Part shown: positions 11,372 through 28,930 of the stretch, piece by piece
Layout of the letters: every line of letters begins with the position of its first letter
Position numbering within the stretch: position 1 is the first letter of the stretch
Virus record (IMG/VR): IMGVR_UViG_3300026484_000104
Location: 1 to 35,185 of that record
Direction: 5' to 3' (one strand)
Origin: a virus
Length of the DNA: 35,185 nt
The notes under the pieces: generated by a model
Seen by the model: only the letters and a program-made list of their open reading frames with translations
The model's database searches: none
Told to the model about the DNA's origin: nothing
Made by a program: the position numbers and the translations under genes

Positions 11372-13201
11372 TTAAAATTCATCAAGATAGTTAGAAGTTG
11401 TTGTGATATTTACTGTTTTTTGCTGTTGATTTGTAGTTATATTATCACTATGTCCGATATAAATTATAGGTCTAGGTAGATGGTTTACATTAATTTCTAA
11501 TATATGTAAAGCTGCTAAAGCATATATTCTACAATCTAAAGCTTCATTTCTCAACCTAACTTTAACATATTCATTTTTTTCATTTCTTTTTTCAGCAGTT
11601 AGCATTTTAAAATACTTATCATTGTAAACAGGTTTATTTGGAAAATGACAATAATTTGCACCCTCTGTAGTTATCTCTAAGTTAGCAAAAAAATCATCTT
11701 TTAGATTATTTACACCAATACTGAATAATGTTAATTCGTTTGGTATCATATTTTGATATGTTTTATTTGTTATAGGGGCATTACGATTACTTGAACCTTT
11801 AATAGCGAATATATTTTGTGAAGTACGTTGTTTACAATACTCATACATAGCTTTAGTTCTATGACCACCTGTATCTAAACACTTACCTATTATTTTCATT
11901 TTTGTACCATCACATCTAGTGAAAGTTGTTTCTAAATAATTATCTAATTGTGTTAAAGTTTCTGGAAATTGAGGATCACCTGCTATGACTTTATAGTCTA
12001 TACTTTTTGTTTCACCATTCCTACAGTGACCTAAAACCTCTATTTCAAATCTATCATCTTGTGTATCTATACCAGCGGTTAATACATATACATCATTAGG
12101 TACTTCACAACCATAGTCTTCCACTCTATCATGAGCATTTGGAATATCAACACCATCTAAATCTTGTTCCCACACTTTAGCATTACGAGTATTTTGCCAA
12201 ACTTGCATAAGTCTAGCATCACCTGTTAGCATTAGTTTGTGAGCTTTTATAAACTCTATAGCTATTTCATTCCATCCTAACCATCCAAGAGGGCTATAAA
12301 AAGATGATAATCTATAACCCTTATGTATGTGTTCAGGATTACGAGCTATCCAAACACCATTTAACATCATCTTAGTTTTTTGATATTCTTCTATTAGTGA
12401 TCCACAATGCGGGCAACCACATTTAACATCACCTTTTAAATTACCTTTAGTATCCGTTTCATAGTGCATATATTCCCATTGAAAAGGTAAAAATTTACCA
12501 CAACTAGGACATGGCATTTCATATTCTCTTTGATCACTATCTTCAAACTCTTGTGCTATGTTTGATACACCAGCTATAGTCGGTGTTGAGTTGATGTAAA
12601 TCTTCTTATTGGAAAAAGCATCAGCTCTAGCTTTACCAAGCTCCATAACATCACCCTCACCAAACGTACCGAAACCATCACAATCATCTAAAATAACAAC
12701 ACGTGCTGAAAAAGATCTAAACGATGAGGTACTATTTGACCAGCCGAAAGTTAAGTTACCACCAGCTACAGCTTTTGAAAAAATTTCTCCAATATCATCT
12801 TTACTTTTACCACCAACTATCTTATTAGCTAGATGTGGAATAGCTCTTAAAGATGGTGTAATACGTCGTTTACTTGTACCTTTAGCTAATGTTTCAGTAG
12901 GTAAGATATATAAAATAGGACATGGATAAAAATCTAAATAACACATAGCTATATTATCAGCGATAGACGAAAACCCTAATTGAGTTCCTTTTATAACCTT
13001 TACTTGTTGAGTGGGGCTTGTGGGGGACATTTCATCCATAATCTCTCTTAGATAAGGTGTTCTATCTGTTCTCCACTTACCAGCTTCAGCACTAGCTTCA
13101 CTTGTTAATATTCTATAGGTATCTGACCATTCACTAACTGTAAATCTAGGATCAGGTTTGAAACCATTTTGAACACCTTTTATAAGTGGATTAATTGACA
13201 T
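11372..13201 (-). CDS. Terminase large subunit (gpA-like)
   Basis: I start at ATG 13201 (MSINPLIKG, 609 residues); the frame runs 18 codons further but without a ribosome site. It is the packaging ATPase-nuclease. Residues about 71-78 (KGTQLGFS) are the deviant Walker A of gpA-type terminases, about 168-175 (VVILDDCD) Walker B. A zinc ribbon (CPSCGKFLPFQW and CGCPHCG) follows, as in the family. The nuclease half begins TAGIDTQDDRFEIEV, with GKCLDTGGHRTKAM and NEALDCRIYAL as further acidic motifs. It overlaps the preceding small gene by 11 nt. The gpA type normally cuts at a cos site, which bears on the repeats upstream of the small subunit. Confidence 0.95.
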   Translation of the reverse strand: MSINPLIKGVQNGFKPDPRFTVSEWSDTYRILTSEASAEAGKWRTDRTPYLREIMDEMSPTSPTQQVKVIKGTQLGFSSIADNIAMCYLDFYPCPILYILPTETLAKGTSKRRITPSLRAIPHLANKIVGGKSKDDIGEIFSKAVAGGNLTFGWSNSTSSFRSFSARVVILDDCDGFGTFGEGDVMELGKARADAFSNKKIYINSTPTIAGVSNIAQEFEDSDQREYEMPCPSCGKFLPFQWEYMHYETDTKGNLKGDVKCGCPHCGSLIEEYQKTKMMLNGVWIARNPEHIHKGYRLSSFYSPLGWLGWNEIAIEFIKAHKLMLTGDARLMQVWQNTRNAKVWEQDLDGVDIPNAHDRVEDYGCEVPNDVYVLTAGIDTQDDRFEIEVLGHCRNGETKSIDYKVIAGDPQFPETLTQLDNYLETTFTRCDGTKMKIIGKCLDTGGHRTKAMYEYCKQRTSQNIFAIKGSSNRNAPITNKTYQNMIPNELTLFSIGVNNLKDDFFANLEITTEGANYCHFPNKPVYNDKYFKMLTAEKRNEKNEYVKVRLRNEALDCRIYALAALHILEINVNHLPRPIIYIGHSDNITTNQQQKTVNITTTSNYLDEF

Positions 13202-13406
13202 AACATACAACCTTATCTTTAAACACCAAAGATTTAATTTTTGCTTTTGCTTCATCTATAGATTTATAGTAAGTTGTTTGGAAAAACCTACCCTTATACT
13301 TTATACCTAAATCAACCCATCTTGTAGTTTTAAGAAAACCGAGAAGTGATGTCGTATGTTCTGTTTGTATTTTAAAACCTTGTGAGGTTTCTAATATTCT
13401 ATACAT
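13191..13406 (-). CDS. Small conserved-looking protein between terminase subunits
   Basis: Starting at ATG 13406 (GAGGAAG upstream, inside the small terminase gene) this gives 71 residues: MYRILETSQGFKIQTEHTTS..., with several aromatic and basic positions (WVDLGIKYKGRFFQTTYY) and a C-terminal KSLVFKDKVVCYV. It overlaps small terminase by 8 nt and large terminase by 11 nt. I do not recognise a family. Placement implies a packaging-related or accessory role, but nothing in the sequence proves it. Confidence 0.65.
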   Translation of the reverse strand: MYRILETSQGFKIQTEHTTSLLGFLKTTRWVDLGIKYKGRFFQTTYYKSIDEAKAKIKSLVFKDKVVCYVN

Positions 13407-26912: not shown

Positions 26913-26966
26913 AAAAGGTTAAACTTTATATACTTAGATATCTTAAAAGAAAAGGTTAATTTAAAA
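26913..26966 (+). promoter_or_regulatory. Promoter/leader cassette, copy 2 of 54-bp repeat
   Basis: Identical to 24646-24699: operator AAAGGTTAAACTTT (26914-26927), TATACT (26929-26934) and the AAAAGG leader, ending at the methyltransferase ATG. The gene therefore has its own operator-controlled promoter. Confidence 0.7.
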
Positions 26967-28930
26967 TGAATATATTAAGTCTGTTTGATGGTATGAGTGG
27001 TGCAAGGTTAGCGCTTGACGATGCTAACATAAAAGTAAAAAACTATTATGCTAGTGAGATTGATAAATATGCTATTACAGTTTCAAAAGCTAATTACCCA
27101 GATATAAAGCATATCGGTAGTGTTACAGAACTCACTAAAAAACAGTTAAAAAAAATGAAAATTGATTTACTTGTTGGAGGATCACCTTGTTTCGTAGCTG
27201 GAACTAAAATAATAACATCAGATGGTTATAAAAACATAGAAGATATTACAATTAATGATAAGGTGTTCACTCATACAAAATCATTTAAAAAAGTATTAAA
27301 TATAGGTGGAGATTTAAAAGAAACTTTAATTATTAAAGCTCAAGGTATTAAACCTACTGAAACAACTAAAAATCATCCATTTTACATTAGAGAGATGTAT
27401 AGAGTTTGGAATAAAGAAAAAAGAATATATGAACGAGTTTTCAAAGAACCTATATGGAAAAATGCTGAAAATATAACTAAAGGTGATTTTTTAGGAATAC
27501 CTATAAATAATGAAAAAGATAATGTCTTAAACTTAACCGAAGAGGAGTGTTATATATTGGGTAGATATGTAGCCGACGGTCACACTAGAAAAGATTTAAA
27601 AACTACAGATAACAGACCTAAAGATAGACATTGGCAACTAATATTAAGTATAGGTTCACATAAATTAAATGATTTAGATTTTATAAAAAATAATCATTTT
27701 AGTTGTTATAAACATACAACAAATGTTCATAGAGCTGTATTTTCAAACAAAAGATTAGTAGAAATAGCAGAGAAGTATTGTGGAGTAGGGGCTATTAATA
27801 AAAAGATACCTCAAATTTTTATAAATCTACCAGTAAAATTATTAAAAAAAGTATTAAAAGGTTATATTGATGGTGATGGTAGTTTTAGAAATAATACAGT
27901 TAGAGCAACCTCAATAAGTGAAGAATTAATTATGTCACTCTCTCAAGTAGTAGCAAAAGTTTATAAAACTAATAGTAGCTATACATATACAGAAAGATCA
28001 AAAAAATGTATTATAGAAAATAGAGTAGTTAATCAAAATGATACATATAGTATTGAATTTAGATTAAATATGAAAAAACAAAGTAGAGCTGTTGTTATTG
28101 ATGATATCATATGGCTACCTTTTAAAAGTGCTACTTATACTAATGAAAAAAAACAAGTATTTAATATTGAAGTTGAAATGGATAACAGTTATACTGCAAA
28201 TAATACAATAGTTCATAATTGTCAAGGTTTTTCACTAGCTGGTAAACGTAAAGGTAGTAGTACAAGTTGTGGAATTACTATAACAACTCTTAAACAATAC
28301 AAAAAACTTAAAAAAGATGGTTTTGAGTTTGATGGACAGTCTTATTTATTTTGGGAGTATGTTAGAGTTTTAAAAATACTTAAAAAGTATAATCCAAAAT
28401 TAAAGTTCTTATTGGAAAATGTTAAAATGTCTAAACATTGGGAAGATATTATATCAAACACTCTAAATATTCAACCACTATTCATAGAGAGTGGTGATTT
28501 CACAGGTTCAATGCGAAAACGGCTTTATTGGTTTAATTTCAAAAAACCTAAAAACTTACCATCTAAAAATATCACAATAGGTTCATATTTTAATATTGAT
28601 GATAAAGATGTGTACTTAGAAGATATTACAGATAGATATAACTCAAAAATACCCGGTACAATGTCATATAAAAAAACAATAGCTAATACTAAAACACTTG
28701 ATGATAAAGCTAGATGTTTAAGTGCTGGTGGTCAAAATATAAGTAATAGTAGTTGTACTAATATAAAAATTGGTGATAGATTTTATAAAATGAAGTCAAA
28801 CTTATGTGAACTCTTGATGGGTGTTCCTGAAGTTTTTACAAATCATGTATCGGAAACTCAACGACATAAGATGATTGGAAATGGTTTTAATATACAAACA
28901 GTTTCAATTATCTTCAAAGGACTTAAGTAA
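26966..28930 (+). CDS. DNA cytosine C5 methyltransferase with intein
   Basis: A 654-residue precursor. Outside the intein, 310 residues form a DNMT of the kind related to DNMT3-type phage enzymes: motif I LSLFDGMSGARLAL (4-17), GGSP (71-74), CQGFSLAG (419-426), motif VI LLENV (482-486), motif VIII MRKRLYWF (516-523) and motif X RHKMIGNGFNIQTV near the end. The 344-residue intein (75-418) lies exactly between SP and the catalytic Cys of the PCQ motif, so that Cys is also the +1 splicing nucleophile. The enzyme cannot be active before splicing. It probably methylates phage DNA against host restriction. A promoter with operator precedes it; TAATG couples it to the next gene. Confidence 0.93.
   Translation: MNILSLFDGMSGARLALDDANIKVKNYYASEIDKYAITVSKANYPDIKHIGSVTELTKKQLKKMKIDLLVGGSPCFVAGTKIITSDGYKNIEDITINDKVFTHTKSFKKVLNIGGDLKETLIIKAQGIKPTETTKNHPFYIREMYRVWNKEKRIYERVFKEPIWKNAENITKGDFLGIPINNEKDNVLNLTEEECYILGRYVADGHTRKDLKTTDNRPKDRHWQLILSIGSHKLNDLDFIKNNHFSCYKHTTNVHRAVFSNKRLVEIAEKYCGVGAINKKIPQIFINLPVKLLKKVLKGYIDGDGSFRNNTVRATSISEELIMSLSQVVAKVYKTNSSYTYTERSKKCIIENRVVNQNDTYSIEFRLNMKKQSRAVVIDDIIWLPFKSATYTNEKKQVFNIEVEMDNSYTANNTIVHNCQGFSLAGKRKGSSTSCGITITTLKQYKKLKKDGFEFDGQSYLFWEYVRVLKILKKYNPKLKFLLENVKMSKHWEDIISNTLNIQPLFIESGDFTGSMRKRLYWFNFKKPKNLPSKNITIGSYFNIDDKDVYLEDITDRYNSKIPGTMSYKKTIANTKTLDDKARCLSAGGQNISNSSCTNIKIGDRFYKMKSNLCELLMGVPEVFTNHVSETQRHKMIGNGFNIQTVSIIFKGLK
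27188..28219 (+). mobile_element. Intein with LAGLIDADG homing endonuclease
   Basis: The insertion is 1032 nt, 344 residues in frame. Block A: CFVAGTKIITSDGYKNIEDI with Cys1. Block B: TETTKNHPF (His137). DOD motifs: LGRYVADG (198-205) and LKGYIDGDG (297-305), giving the LAGLIDADG endonuclease domain. Block F/G: VFNIEVEMDNSYTANNT and IVHN followed by Cys(+1). All splicing residues needed (Cys1, block B His, penultimate His, terminal Asn, Cys+1) are present. The endonuclease acidic residues in both DOD motifs are kept, so it may still be able to home into intein-free copies. Confidence 0.93.

Follow-up and report, generated by a model that had tools for sequence, protein, structure and literature searches.

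A C5-cytosine DNA methyltransferase gene in an IMG/VR virus record is very probably interrupted by a canonical class 1 homing intein, which has an apparently intact two-motif LAGLIDADG endonuclease, is predicted to splice, and lies at a widely used insertion site. The insertion is a well-populated and selfish-looking one and not a new device. The stretch of DNA that was analysed (the window; 35,185 bases) includes genes for a terminase, a portal, head and tail proteins, a primase, a B-family polymerase and helicases. The nearest relative of its terminase large subunit (11372-13255, minus strand) is that of Sulfurimonas phage SNW-1, with 54% identity, hinting that this virus has a host near that group. 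The genes examined around the methyltransferase include no recognisable restriction enzyme.

The precursor gene and its predicted splicing

The precursor gene (26966..28930, plus strand, like all of its parts described here) encodes 654 aa in an uninterrupted frame from Met to stop. The N-extein (residues 1-74; 26966..27187) runs from motif I (FDGMSG, SAM-binding) to the Pro of the PC of motif IV, and is followed by an intein of 344 aa (residues 75-418; 27188..28219) that consists of a Hint splicing domain and a LAGLIDADG endonuclease domain. Within the intein, block A (CFVAGTKI; 27188..27211) begins with Cys75, the first nucleophile (Cys1), block B (TETTKNHPF; 27356..27382) contains the invariant T134 and H137, and blocks F and G (VFNIEVEMDNSYTANNTIVHN; 28157..28219) end in His417-Asn418. 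Both LAGLIDADG motifs, LGRYVADG (27557..27580; catalytic Asp204) and LKGYIDGDG (27854..27880; catalytic Asp304), keep the acidic residue. Cys419 (28220..28222) opens the C-extein (residues 419-654; 28220..28927), which holds CQGFSLAG (the rest of motif IV), ENV (VI), RKR (VIII) and GN (X). The translated junctions read LLVGGSP(74)/C75-FVAGTKI and IVHN418/C419-QGFSLAG, and the computed masses are 35.2 kDa for the joined exteins (310 aa) and 39.9 kDa for the intein. The sequence features of a class 1 intein are found in the window: Cys at position 1, the TxxH of block B, the His-Asn end, and a +1 Cys.

Profile and fold searches gave the same division of the protein. Pfam places DNA_methylase (PF00145; E 3.7e-23, above cut-off) on the precursor in two stretches, with Intein_splicing (3.2e-8) and Hint_2 (4.9e-6), both just below their curated cut-offs, between them, and with LAGLIDADG_3 (PF14528; 2.6e-5, above cut-off) in the insert. 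In a PDB fold search, the predicted structure of the insert matches endonuclease-bearing VMA inteins (best 7qsu, E 3.2e-16), and the outer parts of the precursor match the catalytic domains of DNMT3A and DNMT3B. The preliminary description of this DNA had placed an intein exactly at the catalytic Cys of a C5-methyltransferase and had seen in Cys419 both the +1 splicing nucleophile and the catalytic residue of the enzyme; all of the residues that it quoted are present in one frame, Pfam and the fold search agree with the placement, and the junction translation confirms the identification of Cys419. A nuclease domain in the central part of a methyltransferase could also be taken for the endonuclease of a fused restriction-modification enzyme, with no intein involved. 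We consider this hardly credible and rejected it, since Hint splicing blocks flank the nuclease on both sides and P1-like plasmids include alleles in which this site is precisely empty (described below); the insertion moreover splits a catalytic motif.

Under the preferred reading of a splicing homing intein, Cys75 would form a thioester with Pro74, the N-extein would then pass to Cys419, Asn418 would cyclise with the help of His417, and an S-to-N shift would yield an ordinary 310-aa methyltransferase with GGSPCQGFS as its motif IV. The predicted target of the endonuclease is the motif IV codons of an empty allele, where the gene is most conserved, and repair of the cut allele would copy the intein in. 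What a homing intein requires is a +1 residue that is Cys, Ser or Thr and a target sequence that its hosts are hardly free to alter; since PC(Q) supplies both, the coincidence of the +1 residue with the catalytic Cys is to be expected. Phage inteins at active centres are a general theme (PMC5050341). Because the catalytic loop is parted by 344 residues, it is reasonable to suppose from the anatomy of the precursor that it would be inactive before splicing. The structure model has high confidence in the intein core (most block means >90) and scores <50 at the splice-junction loops (72-75 and 421-429), so that it is silent on the geometry of the active site in the precursor.

Across the joined exteins, C5-methyltransferase motifs I, PC(Q/N), ENV, VIII and X are all found, and ENV is nearly invariant in the aligned family. 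The host motifs listed in the preliminary description (I, IV, VI, VIII and X) are present, with the qualification that motif VIII is without its classical Gln (SMRKR versus QxRxR). DNMT3-type enzymes such as DNMT3A likewise do without this Gln. With the intein still in place, the gene scores 77.9 against the NCBIfam dcm model, below the cut-off of 100.65. Among solved structures, the window methyltransferase (26966-27187 plus 28220-28927) is closer in sequence and fold searches to DNMT3A/3B than to HhaI; the DNMT3A/3B catalytic domains are its nearest solved relatives by N-extein sequence and by fold, and unlike the window gene they are eukaryotic and have no intein. Intein-free homologues, which the preliminary description had wanted found, do exist, both as relatives of approximately the spliced length (e.g., in Bacteroides phage BT638P1, matched over 921 bases) and as empty P1-like alleles.

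Occupancy of the Pro/Cys site and the -1 proline

A scan of IMG/VR with a degenerate back-translated pattern of the C-terminal junction, V-H-N-C-Q-x-x-S-x-A-G (VHN/CQxxSxAG), matched 113 contigs, and in 112 of these the translation is an intein tail that runs into motif IV of a C5-methyltransferase; L108 was rejected as a chance match to the junction pattern. With a stricter pattern, bacterial genomes gave 16 loci, including Metarhizobium, Peptoniphilus, Escherichia, Paenibacillus, Pseudoscardovia and cyanobacteria, with both junctions readable in 14. Overall, both junctions were readable in 113 sequences including the window, representing 93 distinct inteins, all of them between Pro and Cys; the 17 sequences left out of this set were L108, 15 loci with too little upstream frame, and L089, which is damaged. 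The frame of L089 passes directly from methyltransferase motif I to mid-intein sequence, an internal deletion having removed the last part of the N-extein together with the first part of the intein.

In intein numbering, V342, H343, N344, C+1 and Q+2 are invariant by construction, because the scan demanded V-H-N/C-Q. C1, I17, T60 and H63, however, lie outside the search pattern and yet never vary (93 of 93 distinct inteins), which excludes chance as the source of the matches. At the acidic positions of the endonuclease, Asp occurs in 91% (D130) and 95% (D230). When the whole precursor was compared with phage records by tblastn, alignments crossed the insert in P1 and RCS47 Dmt, in Lactobacillus phage Nyseid (GFP/CSPAGT...IVHN/CQDISVAG) and in Mannheimia phage 587AP2 (GGTP/CFTAGH...VVHN/CQ). 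As single queries against IMG/VR, the window intein found few relatives and the C-extein none, because back-translated patterns of single sequences are too specific; the C-extein query likewise turned up in IMG/VR no empty counterpart nearly identical to the window gene.

Judged by these translated junctions, the Pro/Cys junction of motif IV in phage and prophage C5-methyltransferases is a widely used intein site, and the window intein is a further case at a site that published genomes already show to be occupied. The idea that this placement was undescribed or rare is thus contradicted by the viral contigs and bacterial loci, by P1 Dmt, and by approximately 126 P1-like plasmid records, which amount to the many database insertions that the preliminary description had itself named as a refutation. 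In open-access full text, the scope of our literature search, no paper on this C5-methyltransferase insertion site was found; subscription journals and intein databases lay outside that scope.

The residue at position -1 is Pro across the intein group (113 readable N-terminal junctions), which makes for an unusual N-terminal splice junction, a point not raised in the preliminary description. As the first marking rule itself contained Pro-Cys, the junctions were marked anew without using the -1 residue: 111 of the 113 gave the same single junction with Pro at -1, one gave two candidates including it, and one gave none. In several model inteins, proline at -1 hinders the first splicing step. That all of the family has it suggests that inteins at the Pro/Cys site are probably adapted to it, and it is the most interesting experimental handle of this intein group. 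Our open-access search of the literature on -1 Pro inteins found nothing directly usable.

This same proline bears on the question of whether the window intein splices at all. If its Hint domain were degenerate, the outcome would be no splicing, cleavage only, or a dead methyltransferase; the -1 Pro, the missing Gln of motif VIII and the visible loss of the N-terminal junction and intein start in the relative L089 would all fit such decay. We find it highly improbable, since the window keeps every catalytic splicing residue, its reading frame and C-extein motifs are intact, and the missing Gln is shared with the nearest solved relatives of the enzyme.

Mobility and the question of regulated splicing

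The P1 Dmt gene (L001; OP279344.1, 2480-5521) likewise has an intein in its C5-methyltransferase half, inserted at motif IV with the junctions GGTP/CFTAGH...VVHN/CQAFSIAG. The P1 record labels the gene just "Dmt", plasmid records assign it to the Dam-family methyltransferases, and the intein is unannotated in both. About 126 plasmid records cover P1 Dmt to at least 80% and represent occupied alleles. A 301-base query across the empty site found 497 records, 363 of which are covered at least 80% by one match, so that empty P1-like dmt alleles are commoner than occupied ones. Occupied and empty proteins differ by a precise block of 341 residues, with most of the remainder nearly identical (e.g., pSZL38.1). 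Two intein-free alleles, L143 (pATCC10729_02, 301-2562) and L142 (301-2316), carry an exchanged segment C-terminally within the C5-methyltransferase half, and L143 is 82 aa longer; the segment may be a target-recognition region that was swapped or added. With empty and occupied alleles side by side, P1-like phage-plasmids offer a tractable laboratory system for homing and for the effect of the intein on fitness.

Phylogeny also separates the inteins from their hosts. In a comparison of 60 members, neither alignment accepts the tree of the other part (AU p 9e-58 for the extein tree on the intein alignment and 2e-32 for the reverse), a conflict that we take as strong but qualitative only, given the short extein segment and the 5000 replicates of the AU test. 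Pairs of members can be up to 29 points more identical in the intein than in the extein (L042 and L098, 57% vs. 28%), and pairwise extein identities are as low as ~23%. Three mini-inteins at the site (L011, L102 and L141; 135, 141 and 171 aa) have lost the endonuclease and kept the splicing residues, the pattern to be expected where selection maintains splicing but not the endonuclease. The conflict between the intein and host trees is as expected of a selfish homing element, and from these relatives (the empty and occupied P1 alleles and the tree conflict) we infer homing by the window intein.

These observations can be set against the idea, put forward in the preliminary description, that the intein acts as a timer for DNA modification. 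As a regulated switch, splicing would be delayed or conditional and methylation would be confined to a given stage or to given conditions; the precursor must be without a proper catalytic loop, the -1 Pro could slow the first splicing step, and some other inteins are known to splice conditionally. If the shared Cys and the -1 Pro did make splicing slow or conditional and so delay phage DNA methylation, then a post-translational switch would have been used repeatedly across phages, but we think this very unlikely. A timer would be expected to stay with its host gene. Instead, near-identical P1 Dmt exists with and without the intein, the empty form being the commoner, and the element moves between hosts, as the conflicting trees indicate; occupancy is patchy, and retention of the kind that a needed regulator calls for was not what we found in the P1-like plasmids and in the trees, a comparison that lies outside the window's own phage lineage. 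The host enzymes are also so diverse, as their extein identities tell, that no common regulatory context is evident. The timer is therefore disfavoured, with little probability left to it, and the proposal for the window finds no support here.

Comparison with known inteins

Taken alone, the window intein means little, as it adds a single homing intein to an already well-occupied site. However, ~90 diverse inteins at one site, with Pro at -1 and a catalytic Cys at +1, make natural material for studies of proline-tolerant splicing. The inteins nearest to that of the window are L023, L031 and L056 (47-54% identity over the intein), and Nyseid, 587AP2, Propionibacterium phage B22 and ~90 contigs from IMG/VR or genomes share with it the insertion site and the catalytic residues. 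The P1 Dmt intein has the identical insertion point and the same Hint and LAGLIDADG architecture in 341 aa, but it is only ~30% identical to the window intein, and its host protein, unlike that of the window, also has a C-terminal Dam-type domain. LAGLIDADG inteins at conserved sites are known from actinophage DNA methylases as well: DNMT-1/2 are N4/N6-type methylases (PMC5050341), whereas the window enzyme is of the C5 type, and a further actinophage methylase family likewise carries such inteins (PMC9957025). The solved VMA inteins (such as TliVMA and PI-SceI), which are the best fold matches, have the Hint and LAGLIDADG architecture in common with the window intein, but they occupy another host protein and another site, and their sequences are 11-18% identical to it.
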